Program-made: the position numbers and the translations under genes
The notes under the pieces: generated by a model
Database searches by the model: none
The model's input: only the letters and a program-made list of their open reading frames with translations
What the model was told of the DNA's origin: nothing
NCBI GenBank assembly: GCA_947361225.1
Contig: CANAIK010000016.1
Span: forward strand, 1-34,984
Direction of reading: 5' to 3'
Length of the DNA: 34,984 nt
Source of the DNA: an uncultured bacterium
GTDB lineage: Bacteria > Cyanobacteriota > Vampirovibrionia > Gastranaerophilales > Gastranaerophilaceae
In this document: positions 18,391 through 30,730 of the stretch, one piece after another
Layout of the letters: the number at the start of each line of letters is the position of its first letter
How positions within the stretch are numbered: position 1 is the first letter of the stretch

Positions 18391-18416
18391 AAAAGCCCTC
18401 TTTTTTGGAGGGATTT
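18391..18416 (+). terminator. Terminator of the 57-residue gene, rebuilt with the transposon end
   Basis: CCCTC (18396-18400), a TTTTTTG loop and GAGGG (18408-18412) form the hairpin. The last three G belong to the transposon end. The original 3-prime arm (GGGCTTTT) is now at 26371-26378, next to the other end. Joining the two halves restores a perfect 10-bp stem with AAAA and TTTT flanks. Confidence 0.65.
18402..18409. repeat. 8-bp target-site duplication, left copy
   Basis: TTTTTGGA directly abuts the left terminal GGG. The same eight bases abut the right terminal CCC at 26363-26370. An 8-bp duplication is the size known for IS1595-family insertions. Confidence 0.85.
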
Positions 18417-18446
18417 ATATAGCAAATTCCACTAAATAGGTTAAAA
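18410..18446 (+). repeat. Left terminal inverted repeat
   Basis: 37 bp, starting GGGATTTATATAGC and ending AATAGGTTAAAA; an exact reverse complement of 26326-26362. Similarity stops abruptly on the inner side. Confidence 0.9.
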
Positions 18447-18476
18447 CTCTTATAGTAATAGAAGTTTAACCTATTT
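18434..18476. terminator. Subterminal hairpin at the left transposon end
   Basis: AAATAGGTTAAA (18434-18445, inside the terminal repeat) pairs perfectly with TTTAACCTATTT (18465-18476), and six T follow. It could stop transcription entering the element, or present a folded end to the transposase. The right end has no such hairpin. Confidence 0.5.
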
Positions 18477-18519
18477 TTTAATATTTCCCACTCATAGCAA
18501 GAATTTTTTCATCTAAAAC

Positions 18520-18548
18520 TTAACTTTGATAGGTACCTAAAAAGTTAA
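18520..18548. promoter_or_regulatory. Nested palindrome upstream of the DUF2130 gene
   Basis: The outer arms TTAACTTT (18520-18527) and AAAGTTAA (18541-18548) enclose the perfect palindrome TAGGTACCTA (18530-18539). It ends 23 nt before the start codon, a likely operator. TTAACTTT also recurs upstream of the AbiTii gene (19982-20001). Confidence 0.4.
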
Positions 18549-18571
18549 CACATAATCGAAAGGATGAAAAA

Positions 18572-19858
18572 ATGACTAAAGAAATTAAATGCCCTAAGTG
18601 TGGCGAAATATTTCAAGTAGATGAAATGGGCTACGCTATGATTGTAAAACAAGTTAGAGATATGGAATTCGCAAGAGAACTAAAAAAGCGAGTAGACCAA
18701 TTTGAAAAAGACAAATTAAATGCTGTCGAAAAAGCAGTTTCGGAAACTGAAAAAGCATTCATTACAAACATTGCCTTAAAAGAAACTGAAATTACAAAAT
18801 TAAAAGCCAGCCTAAAATCTGAACAAATCTTAAAGAAGTCTGAAATTAATGAAATAATTTCTCAAAAAGACAGAGAAGTTAGCGAACTAAAAAACAAGTT
18901 AGACTCTTTCAATAAGGATAAAGACATTGAGATTGCGAATATTGTTGTGGATTTGAATAATAAACTTTCTGCCCAGGAAAACTTTATTATGAAAATCACT
19001 AATGAAAACGAATTAGCAGAAAAAGAACATCTTTTGCGTGAACAATCCATAAAAGACCAGTATGAAGAAAGACTTCGTTTTAAAGATGAAGAAATCGCAA
19101 GATATAAGGATTTTAGAGCAAAACTTTCTACAAAAATGGTTGGTGAAAGTTTAGAACAACATTGTGAAATTGAGTTCAATAAATTAAGGTCTACTGGCTT
19201 CAAAGGTTCTTATTTTGAAAAAGATAATGAAGTAAAATCAGGAAGCAAAGGAGATTACATCTTTAAAGATTTTGACTCTGATGGAAATGAATATATCTCA
19301 ATCATGTTTGAGATGAAAAACGAGACCGACACAACTTCTAAGAAGAAAAAGAATGAAGATTTCTTAAAAGAATTAGATAAAGACCGCAGAGAAAAAGGCT
19401 GTGAGTATGCGGTGTTAGTATCAATGCTTGAACCTGACAATGAATGTTATAACACTGGCATTGTAGATATGTCGCATAAGTACGAGAAAATGTATGTTAT
19501 ACGTCCCCAGTTCTTTATTCCGATTATAACTTTATTGAGAAATGCTGCTCAGAATTCCATTCAATATAAGCAAGAACTTTCTTTGATAAAGTTGCAGAAT
19601 ATTGATGTGTCAAACTTTGAAGCTGAAATGAATGATTTTAAAGATAAGTTTTCAAGAAATTACAAGCTTGCAAGTGATAAATTCAAAACAGCAATAAATG
19701 AAATTGATAAAACTATTGACCATCTACAAAAGACAAAAGAAGCTTTGTTATCTTCTGAGAATAATTTGAGATTAGCAAATAACAAGGCGGAAGATTTAAG
19801 TATAAAACGTCTGACGAAGAATAATCCTACAATGGCAGCTAAGTTTGCAATGGTTTGA
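18572..19858 (+). CDS. DUF2130 coiled-coil protein with nuclease-like domain
   Basis: A 428-residue cytoplasmic protein. The N-terminus has [12 protein letters not shown], a half zinc ribbon (Cys8, Cys11). Residues 40-190 are a long charged coiled coil. The conserved DUF2130 region follows, about 195-330: [58 protein letters not shown] and VLVSMLEP. Asp in GDYIF and the later Glu-Met-Lys give the D...ExK spacing of PD-(D/E)xK nucleases, to which this family has been compared. Its role is unproven; being cargo of a transposon beside AbiTii hints at defence. Ribosome site AAAGGA. A terminator follows. Confidence 0.85.
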
Positions 19859-19871
19859 AGTATTAATTATA

Positions 19872-19900
19872 AAGACGGCGACAGTAAAGGTCGCCGTCTT
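19872..19900. terminator. GC-rich hairpin after the DUF2130 gene
   Basis: AAGACGGCGAC and GTCGCCGTCTT make a perfect 11-bp stem with a 7-nt loop, 13 nt after the stop. The T tract is interrupted (ACATTT), so efficiency is uncertain. Confidence 0.65.
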
Positions 19901-20024
19901 ACATTTAAAGAGTGAGTTCCTCAATGCGTTTTATTTTCAGAGAAAAATTTAAGCGGAGTTTTATTTATTTCATTATAATTATTAACTTTTCGTTAACTTT
20001 TAAAAAGTTTTTTATAATCACTTG

Positions 20025-20036
20025 TATAATAGCAGT
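20025..20036 (+). promoter_or_regulatory. -10 box placing transcription start on the AbiTii ATG
   Basis: TATAAT (20025-20030) is followed by six bases and then ATG, so the message is predicted leaderless, as for rimM. A second TATAAT is at 20013-20018, just after the palindrome AACTTTT-A-AAAAGTT (19995-20009), a possible operator. Confidence 0.45.
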
Positions 20037-20699
20037 ATGAGTAATATGTACAATGAAATTTTATCAGGTTTAACCACTACATCTTATCCATTGGAAGATA
20101 TTTTACTAAAACTAAAAGTATTGGCGCACAAACTTAAAAACAAGGAATTAACAGATTTTGTAAATTCGGAACTTAATGGCTATGAAGACGATGTTCCATC
20201 TTATCGAATATATAATGGTCACCTGACAGGAACGGTAGAAAATTTAGTTTGCAGAAGAACAAAAATAGCTCTACCTTATTTACATTTAAAAGAACATGGC
20301 TTAGAAAATTTGGGTCAATGTATTTTCTCTGAAAAAATTTCTACCCTAATTGAGTATACAAAATCAGATAATAATATGCACAAGCCAATTCCACCTGAGT
20401 TATACAATATTCTATCAGAACCATTTGAAAATAATTTTGTTGTAACCAACGCATACGTACCAATAGACAAAGCTTTCATAGCTGGAATACTTAGTTCCAT
20501 AAGAGCAAAGTTGCTAGATTTAATGTTTGCAATGGAAAATGAATTTGATACGACAGAATTAGAAAATTTATTTCAAAATCCAACCAAAGAACAACAAGAT
20601 AAGGTTAATTCAGTTATTAATAAATTTATACAAAACAATTTTAATTCATACGATGGAAGTACTCAAAATACTAAAATTGAATTGGAAACTGATAAATAG
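20037..20699 (+). CDS. AbiTii-domain protein (N-terminal part of an abortive-infection protein)
   Basis: A 220-residue protein. Residues 15-90 match the AbiTii domain: YPLEDILLKLKVLAHKLKNK, LTDFVNSELNGYEDDVPSYR and a following beta-rich stretch. The domain belongs to phage abortive-infection proteins. Full-length family members (about 300 residues) continue after an Asn/Thr/Gly-rich linker into a C-terminal helical domain. Here the protein stops soon after the linker (SYDGSTQNT), while a matching C-terminal domain is encoded convergently at 20671-21000. I start at ATG 20037: the frame is open to 20022, but that would lie in the -10 box. The 3-prime ends of the two genes overlap by 29 bp. Confidence 0.8.
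   Translation: MSNMYNEILSGLTTTSYPLEDILLKLKVLAHKLKNKELTDFVNSELNGYEDDVPSYRIYNGHLTGTVENLVCRRTKIALPYLHLKEHGLENLGQCIFSEKISTLIEYTKSDNNMHKPIPPELYNILSEPFENNFVVTNAYVPIDKAFIAGILSSIRAKLLDLMFAMENEFDTTELENLFQNPTKEQQDKVNSVINKFIQNNFNSYDGSTQNTKIELETDK
20639..20670 (+). repeat. Inverted repeat arm, AbiTii linker copy 1
   Basis: A 32-nt stretch, of which 25 match the reverse complement of 20952-20983. The exact blocks are TTTTAATTC and AGTACTCAAAATA with the same 10-nt gap. Both copies encode FNS...STQN in the same reading phase. Confidence 0.75.
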
Positions 20700-21000
20700 C
20701 AGAAAGAACACTGCCAATTTTTTCTTTTATCAAAGGTAGTGAAACATTTACAATTAAACCAGCTGTAACTTTGTCAAATATTGATAGGCACCAATTTTTA
20801 ACATTTTTACCTAAAGAATTTGTTGTTTTAATCTCTTCTTTGTCATTTTCTATTGCCGATTTTAGTTCTGATATATCTTGTGACGATAAATTTACTTCTT
20901 TTAGAAGTTCTAAAATTTTATCAATATCATTATTGTTCACTGTAATAGTATTATTTTGAGTACTATTGTCAAAAGAATTAAAACTAAAATTTATGCTCAT
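20671..21000 (-). CDS. AbiTii C-terminal-domain protein on the opposite strand
   Basis: A 109-residue protein that looks like the missing second half of an AbiTii protein. The polar linker FNSFDNSTQNNTITVNNN is followed by DIDKILELLKEVNLSSQDIS, an acidic helix (ELKSAIENDKEE) and a Lys-rich then hydrophobic end (GKNVKNWCLSIFDKV). Complete AbiTii proteins show this same order after the linker. It has its own ribosome site (GTGAGG) and a TATAAT upstream, so it may be expressed as a separate subunit. Alternatively it is the product of an inversion of 20671-20951. Confidence 0.65.
   Translation of the reverse strand: MSINFSFNSFDNSTQNNTITVNNNDIDKILELLKEVNLSSQDISELKSAIENDKEEIKTTNSLGKNVKNWCLSIFDKVTAGLIVNVSLPLIKEKIGSVLSAIYQFPIQF
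20952..20983 (-). repeat. Inverted repeat arm, AbiTii linker copy 2
   Basis: The partner of 20639-20670. Inversion between the arms would join the AbiTii N-terminal frame to the C-terminal frame without a shift. Confidence 0.75.
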
Positions 21001-21061
21001 AAAAACCTCACTATTTTAGTTTAATTATAGCTTAAACAAAATAAAGTATTTTGATTACTCG

Positions 21062-21086
21062 AAAAGACGGCTTAAAGCCGTCTTTT
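21062..21086. terminator. Intrinsic terminator of the secreted-protein operon
   Basis: AAAAGACGGCT and AGCCGTCTTTT form a perfect 11-bp stem with a 3-nt loop. On the minus strand it follows the last gene of the operon by 24 nt. Confidence 0.75.
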
Positions 21087-21110
21087 AGTTATGTTGGAAT
21101 TTATTACATC

Positions 21111-21833
21111 TTACTTATTTTCATTTGCATATTCCCAAATGGATGTTTCCTTAATTCCGTTTATATTTTCTTTGATTTTATCTCGCATGCAAAAGTCAGG
21201 ATATTGTTTTAAAAATTTCTCCCATCTTTTAACCAGCCCTACATATATATCTCCCCAGTGTTCATCATCATACCAAGCACCTATTGAATAATCTATGCTC
21301 TCATCTCTTGCAAGGCTTAAATACTCTTGCCATTGTGGACTTAAATATTTAGAATATTTTTCTATTATGTAATCATAATTAATGCGAACACCAGTGAACC
21401 AATCTTGGCTTGTATCAAGATATATCAAAGATGTACTCGGTGAAGCTATTCTGTTGACTGTCTGTTTTGTCTTTTCATTAAAACCTTCGTTTTTTAATTT
21501 GATATTATTTATTTCAAATATCTTTATTACAGTAATATCTTGCTTATCTCTTTGATTGTAAAGATTATCTTGAAAAGCCGTTAAGTCTTTATAGAATATT
21601 GCAAACACTTTATCATTGTCAGATGTTTTTTGATTTTTTGCAAAGAATTCAACAAGGTCTTTTTCTTCCTGATTTATGGCATTCAACATTTCTAATGCTA
21701 AAGCCTGCTTAAGTGAATTTTGGGTAATTGTTTTATACCCGCTATCTATTGTTGTTGCACTGCAACCTGTTGAGCTAAATGCGATTAATACCACCGCAAG
21801 ACAAGTTACAATTTTAGATAATATTTTCTTCAT
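21111..21833 (-). CDS. Exported protein, possible lipoprotein
   Basis: A 240-residue protein, last of the four-gene exported operon. The N-terminal signal MKKILSKIVTCLAVVLIAFS ends in STGC, a weak lipobox (Ser instead of Leu at -3), so it is either a lipoprotein attached through Cys24 or a cleaved exported protein. The mature part is mixed charged helix with several Trp/Tyr and is not recognised. There are no membrane segments after the signal. It lies 14 nt downstream of the preceding gene's stop. Confidence 0.75.
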   Translation of the reverse strand: MKKILSKIVTCLAVVLIAFSSTGCSATTIDSGYKTITQNSLKQALALEMLNAINQEEKDLVEFFAKNQKTSDNDKVFAIFYKDLTAFQDNLYNQRDKQDITVIKIFEINNIKLKNEGFNEKTKQTVNRIASPSTSLIYLDTSQDWFTGVRINYDYIIEKYSKYLSPQWQEYLSLARDESIDYSIGAWYDDEHWGDIYVGLVKRWEKFLKQYPDFCMRDKIKENINGIKETSIWEYANENK

Positions 21834-21847
21834 AATTTCTTCCTTTG

Positions 21848-22513
21848 TTAATTATAATAACCTTCAATAGGGTCACACCCCACAGCTCGGATACTTGCCT
21901 TATATTTATCTCCACGTTTTGATACATAATAAGTAACTCCAAACTGAGCTTCATCAATAGTATAAGGGGTCGCACTGTCTCCATAACCTTTATAACCTGC
22001 GATAGTATCAGGTTTATAATTTTTGAAAGTTATATCAGCTATACATCTGTCCATATCCTCAACAACTTCAGCCCATCTTGGATTGCTAACTTCAAATTCC
22101 AATGTTGGATTATAATTTGATATAGAATACAAAACTTGATTTTTTTGTGGTGAACTTTCTTGAAACATTGCTTCTATTTGATTAACCAAAGATTTTCCAG
22201 CTCCTGTTTTTAAGCAATCCGCACTCTGTCCGCCTAAATTTGCAAAAGCTGTATTCACTCTGCCAAATCCTGAATATTTGCCCCTTACAGGTTGATACGG
22301 TCCTTCTGTTTGATAATTTTCGCTTGTATAATAAGTATTGTCAGATGTAGTTTGAGGCGTACTTGTTGTACCATCATCAAGCAATGCCGCAATGGAACCA
22401 ATTAAAACAAGAATAATGAAAGTCCATAAACATCCCATGTTTTTCTTGTTTTTATTAACGTTGTTATTGATTTTTTCGGTTCCAATATTATTGTTTTCAG
22501 TATCATTTTCCAT
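21848..22513 (-). CDS. Membrane-anchored protein with extracytoplasmic domain
   Basis: A 221-residue protein. An Asn/Lys-rich cytoplasmic tail (1-25) precedes one membrane helix (GCLWTFIILVLIGSIAALL). A Thr/Ser/Tyr-rich linker and a domain of about 140 residues with three cysteines (QSADCLKTG, MDRCIADITF, RAVGCDPIEG) follow. Type IV pilin-like proteins have a similar anchor-plus-globular build, but there is no prepilin motif, so I leave it unassigned. I prefer ATG 22513 (GGGG at good spacing) to the frame's first ATG at 22540, which overlaps the upstream gene without a ribosome site. Confidence 0.7.
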   Translation of the reverse strand: MENDTENNNIGTEKINNNVNKNKKNMGCLWTFIILVLIGSIAALLDDGTTSTPQTTSDNTYYTSENYQTEGPYQPVRGKYSGFGRVNTAFANLGGQSADCLKTGAGKSLVNQIEAMFQESSPQKNQVLYSISNYNPTLEFEVSNPRWAEVVEDMDRCIADITFKNYKPDTIAGYKGYGDSATPYTIDEAQFGVTYYVSKRGDKYKASIRAVGCDPIEGYYN

Positions 22514-22524
22514 AAGCAGCCCCG

Positions 22525-22827
22525 CTAATTTCCCATCCATCTTATGCTGCGAAGTTCTTCCAGCTCTTCTTCTGAGGGTCCTTCAAAGGTCATTACCCTA
22601 CTATTAGAAGGGGTTCTTCTATTTTGTTCAAGTTCCCATTGTCTTCTTTGCTCACGAATTTGACGGATTTGTTCTTCCTCCCTTTTTATTGCTTCAACTC
22701 TTGCTCTTTCTCGCTGAATTACTGCGTTTTCATGTTGCTGTTGCAAATATTGTGTTGCAGAATACGCAGAATTAGCAGATAACAAGCAAATTAAGAGTCC
22801 TGTTAATGTTATAATATTTCTTTTCAT
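22525..22827 (-). CDS. Small exported coiled-coil protein
   Basis: A 100-residue protein with a Sec signal peptide (1-23, cleavage after AYS) and a mature part that is one Arg/Glu/Gln-rich coiled coil (about 25-70), ending in an acidic tail. Ribosome site AGGAGGT is near perfect. It lies 8 nt downstream of the previous gene's stop in the same operon. I recognise no family; it may be a periplasmic scaffold or chaperone. Confidence 0.75.
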   Translation of the reverse strand: MKRNIITLTGLLICLLSANSAYSATQYLQQQHENAVIQRERARVEAIKREEEQIRQIREQRRQWELEQNRRTPSNSRVMTFEGPSEEELEELRSIRWMGN

Positions 22828-22835
22828 ATTACCTC

Positions 22836-23285
22836 CTAGTTAGTTGCTTCCCACAATGAGTCTCTTAAACCACTGTTATTATTTCTTCTCAATTTGGTTT
22901 CTATGGCTTCTGCTTCTTCAACAGAATTAACAAGGTATTGCCCTTGGGATTTTCTTTCTCTGATAATTGAACTTACTTCTGAGTTATAAGTATTTCGCTG
23001 TAATTCTCTCCAACCGTATTTACGTCCGTCATTATAACAAGCTCCGCCTACCAAACCTTGAGCATTTGTATTTGTATCTCCTATAATTGCGCAAACATGA
23101 GAATTATCAGCTAGACCTGCAAAATAAGTGTGTTCACTAGCTCCATAAGTTATCATTTGCACTGTGTACGATTTATTGGTTGCTGGGTCGTATAATTTAT
23201 ACCTGTAATTTTCTGCTAAAGCTGGTGTTAATGTAGCTCCTAAAATAGCTCCACCAAGCAACAAAGTTGATAACATCTTTTTCAT
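22836..23285 (-). CDS. Exported protein, first gene of the cargo operon
   Basis: A 149-residue protein. The signal peptide MKKMLSTLLLGGAILGATLT ends in PALA, with cleavage before ENYRYKLY. The mature part starts with beta-rich sequence (YDPATNKSYTVQMI) and has two cysteines (HVCAIIG and GGACYND) that could form a disulphide, then Arg-rich helices. Ribosome site AAGGAGG; its TAG stop overlaps the next ribosome site. On the minus strand TGTTATTAT upstream is an extended -10. Function unknown. Confidence 0.75.
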   Translation of the reverse strand: MKKMLSTLLLGGAILGATLTPALAENYRYKLYDPATNKSYTVQMITYGASEHTYFAGLADNSHVCAIIGDTNTNAQGLVGGACYNDGRKYGWRELQRNTYNSEVSSIIRERKSQGQYLVNSVEEAEAIETKLRRNNNSGLRDSLWEATN

Positions 23286-23435
23286 AAATTAGTCCTCCTT
23301 ATTTTCGCAGGATACATTCCTACTTTGGTTAAATAATAACACAAACACATCAAATATTATCAATTTTGACAAAATTAAACTTTTGGAGATTAAAAACCAA
23401 TCATATAGTATGTAAGCTTAATAAAAAGGTAAAAT

Positions 23436-23777
23436 ATGATTGATACTGAGACTATAGGAAAAATTATAAAGAAGCTGAGAGTTGATAAAAACTTAACTCA
23501 AGAAGCACTTGCGGAAAAGATGGACATTTCAACAAATTATCTAAGCAAGGTGGAAAGAGGGTTAAGTAGATTAAATATTGAAGCTTTTCTTAAAATGGCA
23601 GAAGTTTTGTCTTTTTCTTTGAGTGATTTCGGTATTGAAACAAAAAAGACACATGCTCTTAATCAGGATAAGCAACTGTTATTAGAAAAAATTTTAGCCA
23701 TTCCTGAAAAAGACGCAAGTATGTACTTGGAAACTCTGGATTATATTGAAAGTTTGATATTAAAAATCAGACGATAA
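23436..23777 (+). CDS. XRE-family regulator carried by the transposon
   Basis: A 113-residue protein. A Cro/CI helix-turn-helix spans residues 7-62 (IIKKLRVDKNLTQEALAEKM, then DISTNYLSKVERGLSR, AFLKMAEVLSFSLSDF). A helical C-terminal tail carries EKDASMYLETLDYIES. Ribosome site AAAAGGT. It is divergent from the exported-protein operon, with 150 nt between the starts, so it is a natural candidate to regulate that operon and itself. The SAM-riboswitch transposase unit follows. Confidence 0.9.
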   Translation: MIDTETIGKIIKKLRVDKNLTQEALAEKMDISTNYLSKVERGLSRLNIEAFLKMAEVLSFSLSDFGIETKKTHALNQDKQLLLEKILAIPEKDASMYLETLDYIESLILKIRR

Positions 23778-23822
23778 CAAGATAACGTAAAGCTGCAAAC
23801 AGCCTCTAATAGGGCATTTTGG

Positions 23823-23851
23823 TTGACAAAACAAAAATAACGTGGTATTAT
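23823..23851 (+). promoter_or_regulatory. Near-consensus promoter of the transposase leader RNA
   Basis: TTGACA (23823-23828), a 17-nt spacer and TATTAT (23846-23851). It is the best sigma-70-type promoter in the window. The transcript should start near 23858 and enter the riboswitch about 20 nt later. Confidence 0.8.
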
Positions 23852-23876
23852 AAAAGACGTAAAAATTTAATAAACG

Positions 23877-23962
23877 CTCATAAAGAGTTGTGCGAGGGAC
23901 AAGCCCTATGACCACACAGCAACCTACAGTAAAATGCAAGGTGCTAAAGCTTGAACGATGGG
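23877..23962 (+). promoter_or_regulatory. SAM-I (S-box) riboswitch aptamer
   Basis: P1 is CTCAT (23877-23881) paired with ATGGG (23958-23962, one G-U). The conserved S-box core is in order: AAGAG, then GAGGGACAAGCCCTATGA (P3 with GGGAC/GCCC), CACAGCAACCT, P4 (CCT...AGG) and AAGGTGCTAA. These are the nucleotides that fold the four-way junction and bind S-adenosylmethionine. An intrinsic terminator follows, and the only gene downstream is the transposase. A mapped promoter, aptamer and terminator in register make chance similarity unlikely. I did not run a covariance model. Confidence 0.85.
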
Positions 23963-23994
23963 TTAAGTTGATTTTAATTAAAAAATTTTTGATT

Positions 23995-24021
23995 AAAACC
24001 CGTCGTTGCGATGGGTTTTTT
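23995..24021 (+). terminator. Riboswitch expression-platform terminator
   Basis: AAAACCCGTCG (23995-24005) and CGATGGGTTTT (24009-24019) form an 11-bp stem with one G-U, a TTG loop and a T tract. The 5-prime arm segment ACCCGT (23998-24003) can instead pair with ATGGGT (23958-23963), the 3-prime strand of P1. That gives the on-state antiterminator when SAM is absent. GATGGGTT is identical in the P1 strand and the terminator arm. Confidence 0.8.
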
Positions 24022-24067
24022 CTATTGCTTCTTTTTGTGGGTTTAAAGAATAACAAAAAGAGGCAGA

Positions 24068-25204
24068 GTGAAACACAGTAGTTGCACAAAAATTGAATAT
24101 CAAGCCAAAGTTGCTGATTTGTGCAGTGGTTCTAAAGTCACAAGTAATTTAATTAAGAAAAAATTTGAAGAAATTATCAAAAAGGGCAATTTTTACTCCC
24201 CTAAAGAACTTTATATAAGTATAGCTATGAATATAGAAAATATCTTATGTAAAAACTTTAAAAGCCTTAAGGATTTAAGAGCAATCTTTAGAACAAATGA
24301 AGATTGCATAAAGTTTTTGGAAGAACTTATCTGGGAAGGTGAGCCTGTTAGTCCTTATGATAAAACTTCAAAAGTATATAAATGCAAAGATGGTTGGTAT
24401 AAGTGTAAAAACACTGGCAAAGAATTTAATATTCTTACAGGCACTCTTTTTCAGGGCACAAAAATAGATTTAACGATTTGGTTTGAAATAATTTTCCGTG
24501 AAAATTCGGATAGACAAGGTTTGGCTTCTACAACTGTATCCAGAGAATATGGTATTACGCAAAGAGCAGCTTGGTATATGCTGCAAAAAATAAGAGCTGC
24601 TATGGGAAAAGAAAACCATCAAGAGCTAAAAGGTACTGTTGAAGTAGATGAATATTACGAAGGTGGTTCACATAAAAAAATGCACTATAACAAAAAATTA
24701 GAAGCTAGAGAAAAGCCTAATGGTGGTAAAAAACTATTGCTCGGACTTGTTGAACGAAATGGCAATGCGGTTATTAAGCCAATCCCAGACAAAACAGATG
24801 GGACTTTAACTGCTGGTGTACTTAAATATGTTAAATATAGTTCAACTTTATACAGCGACGACAATCCGAGCTATCAAAAATTACCACCTTTTTATAATCA
24901 AGCAAACGTAGTCCATACCAAAGGAAATTACGTAAGCAAAGAGAACAAAGATATTTATACAAATACAGTAGAAAGTCTTTGGGCAGTATTTGAAAGAACC
25001 AAACAAACACATATTCAAGTCTCTCAAAAACATTTACAAAATTATGCAAATGAAGCAGTTTTCAGGTATAATACAAGAAAGATGAAATCTAGTGAGGCAT
25101 GTATTTGGCTTTTGCAAAACATACAAGATACTCACCATACCTGGGAAGATATTAAAAGTGGAAAATATAGACAATATAATCGAAATCAAACGAGGGCTGC
25201 ATAA
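24068..25204 (+). CDS. IS1595-family (ISXO2-like) transposase
   Basis: A 378-residue DDE-type transposase. An N-terminal extension of about 60 residues precedes the family region, which begins FKSLKDLRAIFRTNEDCIKF and continues EGEPVSPYDKTSKVYKC (the zinc-ribbon position, partly without cysteines) and FNILTGTLFQGTKIDLTIWF. Catalytic-type residues are Asp194 (GTVEVDEYYEG), Asp264 (LYSDDNPSY) and Asn299/Glu302 (YTNTVESLW). The Lys usually found a few residues later (LLKR) is Glu309 here (VFER). It starts with GTG, with GAGG upstream. It lies downstream of the SAM riboswitch and its terminator. It is presumed to act on the 37-bp ends of this element. Confidence 0.9.
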   Translation: MKHSSCTKIEYQAKVADLCSGSKVTSNLIKKKFEEIIKKGNFYSPKELYISIAMNIENILCKNFKSLKDLRAIFRTNEDCIKFLEELIWEGEPVSPYDKTSKVYKCKDGWYKCKNTGKEFNILTGTLFQGTKIDLTIWFEIIFRENSDRQGLASTTVSREYGITQRAAWYMLQKIRAAMGKENHQELKGTVEVDEYYEGGSHKKMHYNKKLEAREKPNGGKKLLLGLVERNGNAVIKPIPDKTDGTLTAGVLKYVKYSSTLYSDDNPSYQKLPPFYNQANVVHTKGNYVSKENKDIYTNTVESLWAVFERTKQTHIQVSQKHLQNYANEAVFRYNTRKMKSSEACIWLLQNIQDTHHTWEDIKSGKYRQYNRNQTRAA

Positions 25205-25223
25205 GATTTGCGGTCGCAAATTG

Positions 25224-25643
25224 GTGAACGCAATCGCTGATTTAGAAAAGAGTGAAGCATTTTTTAAAGATTTATTTGTTGTTTATGGATTAATTTATAA
25301 TACTGAAACTCTAATTCAAAAGAGAGTTTTTGTTGCAGCAGTCACAAAGTATTTTATCTTAGACAGATTGCCTAAAGAGTACTTATCATTTGGTGATGGC
25401 AAGTATGAATACGCTACAAAAGCAATTACTAAGCCTTTAGAACAAGTTGTTGATACTTATTTTGAAATACGTAGCACAAGCGACTCCAGTGAAGATTTTA
25501 AGAAAAAATATGCTGAGAATTTTAACGAAGAAGTAAAAGATTTCAGCAAAGAGATTTCAGAAAATAGAGATGACTCCTTGTCTGATTTTGCTAAAATTGT
25601 TAAAAAAGTATATTACTCAGAAAATGATAAGAAAACCAAATAG
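25224..25643 (+). CDS. Unknown cargo protein after the transposase
   Basis: About 139 residues if GTG 25224 is the start. The frame is open back to 25092, inside the transposase, and no candidate start has a good ribosome site, so the N-terminus is unsure. The product is soluble and largely helical: ADLEKSEAFFKDLFVVYGLI, then TLIQKRVFVAAVTKYFILDR and an acidic/Lys-rich C-terminus. I do not recognise it. With the frame open across the transposase stop, a +1 frameshifted fusion cannot be excluded, though no slippery site is evident. Confidence 0.55.
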   Translation: MNAIADLEKSEAFFKDLFVVYGLIYNTETLIQKRVFVAAVTKYFILDRLPKEYLSFGDGKYEYATKAITKPLEQVVDTYFEIRSTSDSSEDFKKKYAENFNEEVKDFSKEISENRDDSLSDFAKIVKKVYYSENDKKTK

Positions 25644-25646
25644 AAA

Positions 25647-25919
25647 TCATAGTCCCATTGCTTCTAATATTTTTTGTACATCATGGTTATCTTTCGTAAG
25701 TTTCTTTATCTTTAATAATAACTGATAAGTATTATTAACCTTGACCACACATACATGTTTTACCCACTCCATAGCTTCTTCTTTGTTTCCATTCGTTTTA
25801 ATGAGAAGCCTATCCCAATGGTCTTTTCCAAACCATTCTATAAGTGCGTCGTCTTTACTGTCAATTAAGGCATTTAAAGCATTAAACATTTTTTCAATAT
25901 TCCATGATAGTGTTAGCAT
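25647..25919 (-). CDS. Small unknown cargo protein
   Basis: A 90-residue soluble protein, convergent with the preceding gene (3-nt gap). Notable is ALIEWFGKDHWDRLLIKTNG followed by a helix (EEAMEWVKHVCVVKV) and a Lys-rich end. There is no signal or membrane segment. AGAGG lies about 11 nt before the ATG. No family recognised; it could be a partner of one of the neighbours. Confidence 0.55.
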   Translation of the reverse strand: MLTLSWNIEKMFNALNALIDSKDDALIEWFGKDHWDRLLIKTNGNKEEAMEWVKHVCVVKVNNTYQLLLKIKKLTKDNHDVQKILEAMGL

Positions 25920-25993
25920 TTAAGATATTACCTCTTTATAAAAAATTTAATCTATTTTTTTATGTTAGAATTACAGATAAATAGGAGATAATA

Positions 25994-26296
25994 ATGGAAG
26001 AAATTATAATTCAATTTGCAGGACAAATAAATCTTATTCTTACTGGAGAAATTTTAAGTGCAACCCCTATAGGAAGACGTCCTACTTGGGAATTTCGTCT
26101 TTTGAATGTTGATAATAATGAAATTCCCATTCCAATGTCTTCGGATGAAATTTCAAATGGAACTATGACTATAGTAATTGCCAATAAAACAACAACTCAC
26201 CCATTTTGGAGTATGGAACTAATTAATCAAGAAAATGATATTTTTAGAATAACAACTTTCCCCAATAGAACAGAACTATTAACCCAAAATATCTGA
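25994..26296 (+). CDS. Small unknown cargo protein at the right end
   Basis: A 100-residue, beta-rich soluble protein (IIIQFAGQINLILTGEILSA, PTWEFRLLNVDNNEI, HPFWSMELI). It has a good ribosome site (AATAGGAGAT) and ends 29 nt before the right terminal repeat. No family recognised. The strong start signals make it a likely real gene. Confidence 0.65.
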   Translation: MEEIIIQFAGQINLILTGEILSATPIGRRPTWEFRLLNVDNNEIPIPMSSDEISNGTMTIVIANKTTTHPFWSMELINQENDIFRITTFPNRTELLTQNI

Positions 26297-26325
26297 TAAT
26301 GATAAATATTAAGCATTGTTAACCA

Positions 26326-26362
26326 TTTTAACCTATTTAGTGGAATTTGCTATATAAATCCC
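26326..26362 (-). repeat. Right terminal inverted repeat
   Basis: 37 bp, exact reverse complement of the left end, ending GCTATATAAATCCC at the junction. Confidence 0.9.
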
Positions 26363-26370
26363 TTTTTGGA
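26363..26370. repeat. 8-bp target-site duplication, right copy
   Basis: TTTTTGGA directly after the terminal CCC, followed by GGGCTTTT, the displaced 3-prime arm of the host terminator. CCC-TTTTTGGA-GGG can also fold as a hairpin. Confidence 0.85.
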
Positions 26371-28153: not shown

Positions 28154-28483
28154 TTATAATTCATTTTTCTTATCACTTTTTCTGATAATTAATTTGTCAT
28201 TCTCAATATTAATATCTAAAAAATCAACTTCAGGATTAATTTCCAATAGCTCAATAACAGGAATTGTTAAATTGAGCCCAAAACCTGCGCCTCTTTTAAT
28301 TAATTTTTTAACTAGAAAATTAGCACATTGAGCTTCGTTTGTTACTTTTATAACACTCAAGGTTTTGTTTTCAATTTTTATAAGAACCCTAAATTCCTTT
28401 TCGTTAATTCCAAGTAATTTAGCCAAAGGTTTGTTAATATATAATTGCCAGCTGTTTCCTGCTAGTGTAAGTTGTTTTTTCAA
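28154..28483 (-). CDS. AbrB/MazE-like swapped-hairpin protein, two-domain
   Basis: A 109-residue protein with two copies of a short AbrB-like unit. The first is KQLTLAGNSWQLYINKPLAK with LLGINEKEFRVLIKIENKTL; the second is GAGFGLNLTIPVIELLEINP with EVDFLDINIENDKLIIRKSD. The pattern (GNSW-L-I-K-ll-i, then charged beta strands) is that of AbrB/MazE/SpoVT DNA-binding domains, common in antitoxins. Start is TTG at 28483, with AAAGGAT upstream. It lies 23 nt downstream of an XRE gene. The C-terminal half resembles the one-unit protein at 29771-29938 in sequence and DNA. Confidence 0.65.
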   Translation of the reverse strand: MKKQLTLAGNSWQLYINKPLAKLLGINEKEFRVLIKIENKTLSVIKVTNEAQCANFLVKKLIKRGAGFGLNLTIPVIELLEINPEVDFLDINIENDKLIIRKSDKKNEL

Positions 28484-28506
28484 AATTTATCCTTTTTTAA
28501 AACCAA

Positions 28507-28782
28507 TCAATCTTCTAAAAGACTAAAATTAGAGCCTAGTTTTTTCTTAAGTTCTGCAATAATTATTTCTAAAGGAATATCTAACGCTTCGCAAACTCTC
28601 CACAGGGTAGATAATTGCGGATCCTTTATTCCTTTTTCTAAATCCAACCATAATGATTTAGACATCATAATTTCAGCAGAAATCTTGCTAATGGATTTAT
28701 TTTGGTTGGTTCTGTATTCTTTAATTATTTTTGCAAGTGATTGTTGTAACTCGATTTTAGCTTTGTTATATTTATCTGTCAT
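28507..28782 (-). CDS. XRE-family regulator
   Basis: A 91-residue helix-turn-helix protein: LAKIIKEYRTNQNKSISKIS, AEIMMSKSLWLDLEKGIKDP and LWRVCEALDIPLEIIIAELK. It is first in a two-gene unit with the AbrB-like gene, an XRE-AbrB pairing that recurs at 29.8-30.2 kb. The inverted repeat TTGTA-TTAG-TACAA 38 nt upstream may be its operator. Confidence 0.85.
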   Translation of the reverse strand: MTDKYNKAKIELQQSLAKIIKEYRTNQNKSISKISAEIMMSKSLWLDLEKGIKDPQLSTLWRVCEALDIPLEIIIAELKKKLGSNFSLLED

Positions 28783-28820
28783 ATTATTAAATAATAGTGT
28801 TTATTAAAAAATACCCGTTC

Positions 28821-28834
28821 TTGTATTAGTACAA
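28821..28834. promoter_or_regulatory. Short inverted repeat upstream of the XRE-AbrB pair
   Basis: TTGTA and TACAA around a 4-nt TTAG spacer, between the XRE start (28782) and the fic 3-prime end. Operator-like in size and place, but short enough to occur by chance. Confidence 0.3.
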
Positions 28835-28893
28835 ACTGTTAGATTTTTTATGCCTTCTGACATTGTTATAAGTGTAATTTTAAATATGAGGAT

Positions 28894-29502
28894 TTATTTT
28901 AGCTCATTTGTATTGTAGGAGAAATACCCTTCGTAATTATAACTTGCGTCAATTCCCTTCATATAAATTTCTCTATTATTAACCTCGGTTGTTAGCGCAG
29001 CTCTTATTAATTCTTTAATTTCAACGTTTTTAATTGGACTGCGCTCCATTGCAAGAAGATAATCTTCTTTATCGATTATTTTCCAATCCACAACCTTCCC
29101 AAGTTGTTTTTTTAGAATTAAATCCAGCCAGATTCGAGTTGCCCTGCCGTTGCCTTCACGAAAAGGATGGGCAATATTCATTTCAACGTATTTTTCTATA
29201 ATTTCATCGAAAGTATTCTGCGCTAAATTATCTATATATTCTAAAGACTGCGCCAAATACATAACAGGGGCGAATCTAAAATTGCCCTTAGCAAGATTTA
29301 CGGTTCTTATAACGCCTGCAAAATCATAAATTTCATCAAATAAATATTTATGGATATAAGATAAAGTTGAGAATTTGCCGGGTTCAAGGGTATTTAGAAT
29401 TCATTTTTCGAACAATTCTATAGCTTTAATCTTACTTATTCTTTCCTTTTCTTTTGCTAGGATTGAGGATTCTTTTATTCCAAGTTTATTTTCTAGAACC
29501 AT
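28894..29502 (-). pseudogene. Fic-domain protein gene with an in-frame TGA
   Basis: The frame from ATG 29502 reads MVLENKLGIKESS, passes AIELFEK and meets TGA at 29403-29401 (codon 34). It then continues in the same frame with ILNTLEPGKFSTLSYIHKYL, FDEIYDFAGVIRTVNLAKGN and the Fic motif HPFREGNGRATR to 28894. Intact homologues have a sense codon here, often Gly, so a single GGA-to-TGA change would explain it. Fic enzymes transfer AMP or other moieties to target proteins. Translation from ATG 29262 would give 122 residues with the motif but without the N-terminal helices. TGA is a normal stop elsewhere in the window (rimM), so recoding is unlikely. Confidence 0.8.
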
Positions 29503-29552
29503 ATAGACCTATTGTAACAAAAAATTTTATTAAATACTATAATTATATAATC

Positions 29553-29768
29553 TTATTGATTCTCAAAATCCATTAAAAATTCCCCCGGGGATTTTTTGAA
29601 TCCGTTGGAAATTTTCCTTAGAACATTCAATTTAATATCTTGTTTTAAATTCTCAATCCTTGATAATATCGCAGGGTCAATGTCGTTAACAATTGAGAAT
29701 TCATTCAAGGAAACCCCCAGTTTCAATCTTTCTTTTTTAATATATTCTCCAAGTTTTGAATAATTCAT
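29553..29768 (-). CDS. Small XRE-type protein next to fic
   Basis: 71 residues, one helix-turn-helix: YIKKERLKLGVSLNEFSIVN, DIDPAILSRIENLKQDIKLN and KISNGFKKSPGEFL. It starts 2 nt after the AbrB-like stop and ends 50 nt before the fic start, so it is in one operon with both. It is a candidate antitoxin or regulator for Fic. Confidence 0.8.
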   Translation of the reverse strand: MNYSKLGEYIKKERLKLGVSLNEFSIVNDIDPAILSRIENLKQDIKLNVLRKISNGFKKSPGEFLMDFENQ

Positions 29769-29770
29769 TT

Positions 29771-29938
29771 TTATTTTTCAATTTTCTTATCACTTTTAGT
29801 GATAATTAATTTTTCATTCTCAATTGTATATTTAACCATATCAACTTCCGGATTAACATCAATTAATTTAAGCATAGTAGAATTAATACACAATGCCCAG
29901 CCATTTCCGTTTCGCATCAATTTTCTGTCAAATGTCAT
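29771..29938 (-). CDS. AbrB/MazE-like one-domain protein
   Basis: 55 residues starting at ATG 29938 (AGG 8 nt upstream; the frame is open 21 nt further without a ribosome site). The sequence RKLMRNGNGWALCINSTMLK, then LIDVNPEVDMVKYTIENEKL and a Lys-rich end, matches the C-terminal half of the protein at 28154-28483. Such small swapped-hairpin proteins act as antitoxins or transition regulators. It is sandwiched between two XRE genes with almost no gap. Confidence 0.65.
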   Translation of the reverse strand: MTFDRKLMRNGNGWALCINSTMLKLIDVNPEVDMVKYTIENEKLIITKSDKKIEK

Positions 29939-29959
29939 AATTATACCTAAAATTTCCAC

Positions 29960-30181
29960 TTAAAAATCAAATAAGTCTTTAACCCGGACTCCTAAATTAT
30001 CGGCAATTATTTTTAATTTACTAACGGTAATATCGGTTGCTCCGATTTCAACTAAACTTATCATTGAACGAGAAATTCCGTTAATTCCAATATCGTCTTG
30101 GGTTAATTTTTTTTCGTTTCTCAAATTTTTTATTCTATCGCCAAGTTTTTTGATATAATCCTTGTTTATACTATTGTTCAT
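29960..30181 (-). CDS. XRE-family regulator, first gene of the fic operon
   Basis: 73 residues: GDRIKNLRNEKKLTQDDIGI, NGISRSMISLVEIGATDITV and KLKIIADNLGVRVKDLFDF, a complete Cro/CI domain with no extra domain. Ribosome site AGGATAA. It heads XRE, AbrB-like, XRE, fic with gaps of 21, 2 and 50 nt. Confidence 0.88.
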   Translation of the reverse strand: MNNSINKDYIKKLGDRIKNLRNEKKLTQDDIGINGISRSMISLVEIGATDITVSKLKIIADNLGVRVKDLFDF

Positions 30182-30202
30182 AAAAATTATCCTATTATTT
30201 TT

Positions 30203-30442
30203 TTAGAACTTGTATTCTTCGCTAAAATCGAAAAAATCTTTAGGTTGGATTCTAAAAATTTTTAATATTCTAGTTAAAACCTTGTTGCTAATTAGTCTTT
30301 CACAACGCTCAATGTGTCCAATGTATTTTTCGTTAAGTCCTAAGAGTTCTGAGAGTTGTTCTTGTGTATAATTTGCTTTTTGTCTTAACAAACGAATTTT
30401 TTTGCCAATATTTTTATAATAATATTCTTCAAAACTTGACAT
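30203..30442 (-). CDS. XRE-family regulator, tandem paralogue A
   Basis: 79 residues: GKKIRLLRQKANYTQEQLSE, LLGLNEKYIGHIERCERLIS and ILKIFRIQPKDFFDF. Similar along its length to the next gene (shared EKYIGH/SKFIGH and ERCERLIS/ERFERYIS). There is no ribosome site. AATAAT lies six bases before ATG, so the message may be leaderless. The 22-bp repeat at 30475-30496 lies 32 nt upstream. Confidence 0.88.
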   Translation of the reverse strand: MSSFEEYYYKNIGKKIRLLRQKANYTQEQLSELLGLNEKYIGHIERCERLISNKVLTRILKIFRIQPKDFFDFSEEYKF

Positions 30443-30474
30443 AAACTAATTATTAAATATATACTTATAAAGCA

Positions 30475-30496
30475 CCACTGCTATATAAGCACTATT
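30475..30496. promoter_or_regulatory. 22-bp repeated control site, copy 1
   Basis: Contains CCACTGCTATATAAGCAC; identical over 22 bp to 30763-30784. The core is TGC-TATATAA-GCA. It ends next to the presumed -35 of paralogue A, 32 nt from the start codon. Confidence 0.65.
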
Positions 30497-30508
30497 AAGA
30501 AAGGTAAT

Positions 30509-30730
30509 TTATTTGATGTCAACTAAATCAGACAATGAAACGTTTAAAATTTTAGATATTTGGATAAGTTTTTTTAAACTAATATATCTTTCAAAACGTT
30601 CGACGTGTCCAATGAATTTTGAATTTGCATTCAGCGTTTCAGAGAGTTTTTCTTGGGACAAGCCTTGTTCTATACGATATTTTCTAATGTTTTTTCCTAT
30701 AGCTATATAGATTTTGTCTTCAAAACTCAT
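30509..30730 (-). CDS. XRE-family regulator, tandem paralogue B
   Basis: 73 residues: GKNIRKYRIEQGLSQEKLSE, TLNANSKFIGHVERFERYIS and QISKILNVSLSDLVDIK. A tandem duplicate of the gene to its left. There is no ribosome site; TAATAT lies six bases before the ATG. It has the same 22-bp repeat at exactly the same distance upstream as paralogue A. It is divergent from the HAD gene. Confidence 0.88.
   Translation of the reverse strand: MSFEDKIYIAIGKNIRKYRIEQGLSQEKLSETLNANSKFIGHVERFERYISLKKLIQISKILNVSLSDLVDIK

Follow-up and report, generated by a model that had tools for sequence, protein, structure and literature searches.

We identified a 7.95-kb defence transposon that very probably gates its IS1595-type transposase through a SAM-I riboswitch of its own, acting as a transcriptional OFF switch. 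The transposon lies in the window, the whole stretch of 34,984 nucleotides analyzed here, from an uncultured bacterium of the Gastranaerophilaceae, a family related to cyanobacteria and living in the gut. The computed part of this reading comprises the aptamer, the promoter, the terminator, the exclusive pairings, conservation in independently inserted elements, the ends of the element and its target duplication. SAM as the ligand, the direction of switching, termination, and a transposase level that limits transposition are inferred, though anatomy and conservation lend the proposed function good support. The SAM-I RNA sensor is usually found on methionine genes, and the known restraints on transposases are antisense RNA, terminators, Dam methylation and repressors. 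Were a metabolite-binding RNA to gate a transposase directly, this would add a new level of control and tie methyl metabolism and DNA modification to the mobility of anti-phage genes.

A search of the window with cmscan returned a single Rfam match, to RF00162, at 23875-23964 (+). It covered the full model length with 52.3 bits (E 2e-9), above the gathering cut-off of 44.4 bits, and RF00162 was the top-scoring model of its clan at this position. This was also the only SAM-I match in the host genome (1.9 Mb). An earlier note, made from the letters of the DNA alone, had described an S-box aptamer with all core segments in order, to be abandoned if the covariance score fell below threshold. The score held, and the segments AAGAG, GAGGGA, GCCC, AUGA, GCAACC and GGUGC are complete and ordered, almost all of them invariant in an alignment of nine copies; the P4 hairpin of the consensus is missing, though, its model positions being deleted in the RF00162 alignment. 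P4 is likewise missing in the other SAM-I loci of the family that were inspected and in two metK leaders of a sister family. Longer Rfam matches within the family arise because the terminator gets aligned to P4. The L2/J3-4 pseudoknot pairs CAAG (23900-23903) with CUUG (23950-23953), so that both sides are altered relative to the consensus cuGG/CCug, and it is retained in all nine copies. Single-sequence folding of the aptamer was uninformative (z -0.22), as expected for a pseudoknotted aptamer. Judged from sequence, without SAM-binding data, the window RNA is a P4-less aptamer of the SAM-I clan rather than a standard SAM-I.

The near-consensus promoter, the intrinsic terminator and the IS1595-family transposase gene that the earlier note had placed around this aptamer were all recovered (Table 1), and related copies have a TTGACG-type promoter in the equivalent position. 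The pairing it had proposed between 23958-23963 and 23998-24003 proved to be contained in a longer one, in which 23954-23964 (AACGATGGGTT) and 23997-24007 (AACCCGTCGTT) pair at 11 of 11 positions, one of them G-U. Because 23954-23964 can pair with the 5' arm of the terminator, P1 plus terminator and the antiterminator are mutually exclusive. In a ligand-free minimum-energy model the two states of the leader lay within ~4 kcal/mol of each other, and the direction of the switch therefore depends on SAM-I precedent. The anatomy fits the claim that bound SAM means termination, but SAM binding and termination themselves are inferred. The register of terminator and antiterminator was retained in nine of nine riboswitch-transposase copies. 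Among the family SAM-I loci with clear anchors, the terminator arm was complementary to the P1 3' strand in 37 of 42, with 3.4 expected from shuffles. The two strands co-vary, reading AUGGG/CCCAU in IS1595 elements and AUAGG/CCUAU or AUGAG/CUCAU in other classes. This covariation favours a predicted switching mechanism, with the reservation that the classes are not always independent events.

The unit delimited earlier at 23823-25204 is indeed present, but it belongs to a far larger transposon of 7,953 bp (18410-26362), whose ends were located by comparison with related copies. No inverted repeats were found near the riboswitch; the left end lies ~5.5 kb upstream. When joined, the flanks of the element fold as an intrinsic terminator hairpin (-17.1 kcal/mol), which places the insertion site in the loop of a terminator 3' of atpG. 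A search of the genus for an empty site found the atpG region, with neither of the right-flank genes adjoining it in the loci examined. Since no empty site was recovered, the evidence for insertion consists of the repeats and the duplication alone. Intact transposase, perfect repeats and near-identical relatives across genera suggest recent movement of the element, transposition itself being inferred. Downstream of the transposon, 28154-30730 of the window holds a row of ORFs that, judged by eye, encode small Xre-type regulators, AbrB-like proteins and one Fic-like protein; they suggest another variable region.

Table 1. Features of the transposon and of its riboswitch-transposase unit (positions in the window).
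Feature	Position	Strand	Evidence and remarks
Left target-site duplication	18402-18409		TTTTTGGA, 8 bases identical at both ends
Left terminal inverted repeat	18410-18446	+	37 bp, perfect inverted match to 26326-26362
DUF2130 gene	18572-19858	+	PF09903, 2e-89; first gene at left end
AbiTii abortive-infection (anti-phage) gene	20022-20699	+	PF18864, 7.9e-35; PADLOC AbiTii, 1.6e-36
Cargo ORFs	20671-21000, 21111-21833, 21848-22540, 22525-22827, 22836-23285	-	No Pfam match
HTH_3 (Xre-type) regulator gene	23436-23777	+	PF01381, 2.2e-14; adjoins transposase promoter
Sigma-70-type promoter	23823-23851	+	TTGACA-17-TATTAT, 11/12 consensus positions, extended -10
SAM-I aptamer	23875-23964	+	P1, P2 with kink-turn segments, P3, no P4; RF00162, 52.3 bits, and nine-copy alignment
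Antiterminator	23954-24007	+	23954-23964 with 23997-24007, 11/11 pairs, register kept in nine copies
Intrinsic terminator hairpin	23995-24019	+	Followed by U-tract (T-rich DNA)
IS1595-type DDE transposase	24068-25204	+	GTG start, 378 aa, intact; PF12762 (DDE_Tnp_IS1595), 4.6e-32, full length
Accessory ORF	25158-25643	+	161 aa, GTG start, overlaps transposase end
Two further ORFs	25647-25919, 25994-26296	-, +	Between accessory ORF and right end
Right terminal inverted repeat	26326-26362	-	37 bp
Right target-site duplication	26363-26370		TTTTTGGA

Four more complete elements, of 8.2, 9.5, 11.0 and 12.4 kb, were found in other genera. Each has inverted repeats of its own, in which the two ends match apart from minor differences in some elements, and an 8-bp target duplication (CAAAATAA, AAAAGTTG, GATTTTTC and AAATTAAA). 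A DUF2130-type gene opens all five complete elements (Pfam-confirmed in the window copy, assigned by similarity in the others), while the last two ORFs of the window element have no counterpart at that place in the other complete copies. Their remaining recognised cargo is of anti-phage or restriction kind: AbiTii in the window copy; Abi_C in L084; a type IIG restriction-methyltransferase and an SNF2/PLD helicase in L085; a C5 methyltransferase, an NgoFVII-type endonuclease, Vsr and an Mrr-type nuclease in L086; and an Eco57I-type methyltransferase with a T5orf172/ResIII protein in L087. DNA methyltransferases of the restriction-modification type are thus present in three of five complete elements, meaning that these encode SAM-consuming enzymes that protect host DNA. 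L156, L149, L129, L130 and L132 are related elements in which either the inverted repeat differs (GGGACTTATATCGCAGTTTACACTAAA for L149 and L156) or stops interrupt the transposase.

The order of SAM aptamer, IS1595 transposase and accessory ORF of ~160 aa recurs at nine loci in at least seven genera of Gastranaerophilales (the window copy WIN and L042, L050, L064, L069, L070, L073, L074 and L079). Eight of the nine copies, that of the window among them, scored above the RF00162 cut-off, and the ninth reached 28.6 bits. Over the 36 pairs, mean identity was 86% for the aptamer, 71% (nucleotide) and 61% (protein) for the transposase, and 56% at four-fold degenerate sites, the aptamer exceeding the four-fold sites in 35 of the pairs. 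An aptamer at 86% against four-fold sites at 56% indicates that the RNA is under selection. Related elements without the aptamer would have counted against the link drawn in the earlier note; instead, nine of 15 intact aligned transposases of the clade carry it, all nine with the pairing and with an aptamer more conserved than silent sites. As the unit lies inside the transposon and is repeated in nine diverged elements, the riboswitch is real and conserved, built into IS1595-type defence transposons rather than a chance neighbour. The first gene behind the switch is that of the transposase, whose start codon lies at a conserved position ~100 nt 3' of the aptamer; the aptamer is in sense orientation. 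The accessory ORF is found in every copy that extends that far and has long invariant stretches, including one at the C terminus. It has no Pfam domain, and its predicted structure, of moderate confidence, matched no PDB fold.

In the proposed mechanism, RNA polymerase would start at the promoter (23823-23851) and transcribe the aptamer first. With SAM bound, P1 would keep 23958-23964 and the terminator (23995-24019) would fold, so that the transcript would end at ~24020, before the transposase and the overlapping accessory ORF. At low SAM, 23954-23964 would instead pair with 23997-24007, no terminator would form, and both genes would be transcribed. The likeliest purpose, itself inferred, would be to let a falling supply of methyl donor license transposition, in a state where restriction-modification cargo poses a risk or the host faces starvation or phages. 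Scarcity of methyl donor would lead to under-methylated DNA, which would make a restriction-modification cargo dangerous, and scarce SAM may signal starvation or phages that destroy SAM. Moving or gaining copies under such scarcity could favour the element, all of this being inference only. Methylation capacity as the sensed condition, put forward in the earlier note, likewise stays an inference, one that gains weight from the DNA methyltransferases in several elements. The methyl-donor rationale fails, however, for elements with only abortive-infection cargo recognised, the window element included: its recognised cargo, AbiTii, does not need SAM, and the rationale is not compelling for every copy.

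The history of the switch was followed in a maximum-likelihood tree, in which 16 close transposases formed one clade (100/100), with four distant IS1595 transposases from this family falling outside it. Besides the nine copies with a riboswitch, six other intact copies and one broken copy have an apparent decayed aptamer. The seven members with an unrelated-looking leader form a nested sub-clade (99/99), sister to the window copy (96/96). A scan of the leaders of L114-L120 found no regulatory family in Rfam. Aligned with the leader of L069, these leaders scored 54, with a maximum of 43 in 300 shuffles; the alignment exceeded shuffles for L069 and, weakly, for L073, and for no other riboswitch leader. 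Leaders of the sub-clade are without GAGGGA, GGUGC and an intact U-tract. They are best read as a putative decayed riboswitch, with moderate support. As reconstructed from the tree, the riboswitch is ancestral in the transposase clade and decayed in this one sub-clade, the decay again moderately supported; an Rfam scan of eight more distant IS1595 loci gave no SAM-I match. Within each of two groups of the decayed sub-clade, the transposase genes are 98.8-100% identical across genera, indicating recent spread. The switch is not needed for mobility, given near-identical copies of a switch-less sub-clade in different genera. Its loss may even favour mobility, for which the sample is too small. 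This sister clade allows the role of the switch to be judged by natural comparison; near-identical copies across genera were noted among L114-L120, L142-L147 and L149. No relatives were found in viral contigs, and plasmids and phages held only distant ones (at most ~41% identity).

Could the leader be no more than a protective terminator, its aptamer a relic or a strengthener of the terminator, with no role for SAM sensing? Terminators are common before transposases, where they block read-through expression (PMC2965389), and the sub-clade in which the riboswitch decayed still spreads. A plain terminator requires no conserved aptamer, however, and here core, pseudoknot and P1 are 86% identical with silent sites near saturation. 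Nor would it account for the element's own promoter directly 5' of the aptamer or for a P1/antiterminator register kept in nine of nine copies, and we regard this explanation as unlikely. Rather improbable, too, is a switch directed chiefly at the accessory ORF (25158-25643), whose product might, for instance, regulate transposition or act in defence, with the transposase a co-transcribed passenger. The overlap of that ORF with the end of the transposase gene, its presence wherever copies reach and its invariant stretches speak for it; against it, the transposase comes first after the switch with its start codon position conserved, and the accessory protein is without a recognisable domain or fold.

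A transposon might also have inserted behind a host methionine riboswitch, or once have carried one off, without any functional link. Riboswitches that lie antisense to transposase genes have been attributed in print to chance insertion (PMC9943018), and the tree is consistent with the clade having acquired the switch once, at its base. The aptamer of these elements, however, lies within the inverted repeats, in sense and at a set distance before the start codon (~100 nt), in nine elements at different sites; it is under selection, and no methionine gene of the family was found under a SAM-I switch. Insertion behind a host switch is largely refuted, and chance capture as a whole is scarcely credible beside a switch that belongs to the transposon and probably governs its transposase.

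The earlier note knew of no described example of such a coupling, and none was found in the open-access literature, for which mostly titles and abstracts were available: no natural riboswitch-controlled transposase appeared at that level, an absence that is not proof. By title and abstract, the top matches on riboswitches and transposase expression concerned engineered transposon-mutagenesis systems. On the literature searched, a metabolite sensor on a transposase seems previously undescribed. The window RNA shares with SAM-I (RF00162) the core segments, P1-P3, the L2-J3/4 pseudoknot, the P1/antiterminator/terminator layout and a score above the cut-off, but is without P4 and governs a transposase instead of methionine or SAM genes. 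With the IS1595 family, including members with passenger genes, the elements share DDE_Tnp_IS1595, inverted repeats starting with GG and 8-bp duplications, and relatives of the window transposase carry an IS1595 annotation in public records. They differ in their size of 8-12 kb, anti-phage cargo, left-end DUF2130, accessory ORF and metabolite riboswitch. Membership of the IS1595 family was met on all tested features, with transposition inferred. The 'mobile attenuators' (PMC2965389) also have an intrinsic terminator in the transposase leader, but that of the window is coupled to a ligand-binding aptamer and an antiterminator. In the antisense cases (PMC9943018) a riboswitch likewise adjoins a transposase gene, through random insertion near host switches, whereas the window switch is internal, sense and conserved; neither of these papers describes a conserved internal sense riboswitch. 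The difficile system (PMC3649979) has a structured RNA 5' of a transposase as well, there made up of self-splicing introns and not of metabolite-gated terminators.

Across the family, RF00162 was found above the cut-off in 41 of 383 genomes, and 48 SAM-I loci were counted (three below the cut-off). The genes that follow are IS1595 transposases (9), a Zn-ribbon-like ORF of ~140 aa (20), 'MEQQ' ORFs (10), N-formylglutamate amidohydrolase genes (3), short ORFs called AlpA-like by appearance and without Pfam match (3), and others (3). No SAM-I switch preceded a recognisable methionine or SAM gene in the 383 genomes. Elsewhere in the phylum, the RF00162 search found many SAM-I switches before metK, a homocysteine S-methyltransferase gene and other methionine genes, and in the sister family of the same class the P4-less switch precedes metK. 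The simplest reading would be that mobile and orphan genes of this family co-opted a P4-less aptamer that had once served metabolism. A broader proposal, which we hold only tentatively and would not back at even chances, is that SAM-I in Gastranaerophilales left methionine metabolism and became a common control device of mobile defence elements with both transposase types: IS1595-type and, independently, an operon leading into a Mu/TniB-type transposase (L052, L055, elements of restriction-modification or phosphorothioation type). If true, low methyl donor would act across elements with DNA-modifying defence systems as a general 'move now' signal.

Several of the other SAM-I targets in the family are unusual. 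The commonest, the conserved ~140-aa ORF (L035, L036, L039, L047, L059, L071, L075 and L076 among others), has a CxxC...CxxC zinc-ribbon pattern and no Pfam match. At four loci (L039, L071, L075, L077) it is followed by a DUF2130 gene, of the same family that opens every complete IS1595 element. In L037, L040 and L051, SAM-I lies directly 5' of an N-formylglutamate amidohydrolase gene (PF05013), an unusual target. The 'MEQQ' ORFs, of unknown function, are under SAM-I in L052, L055, L054, L045, L053, L046, L058, L065, L068 and L072. A Mu-type transposase comes after this ORF, beside defence-type genes, in L052 and L055 (the TniB-like ATPase was confirmed in L055), with an N6/N4 methyltransferase gene or DndC-like PAPS_reduct and DUF4007 genes as neighbours, and L054 holds two methyltransferases and GmrSD.
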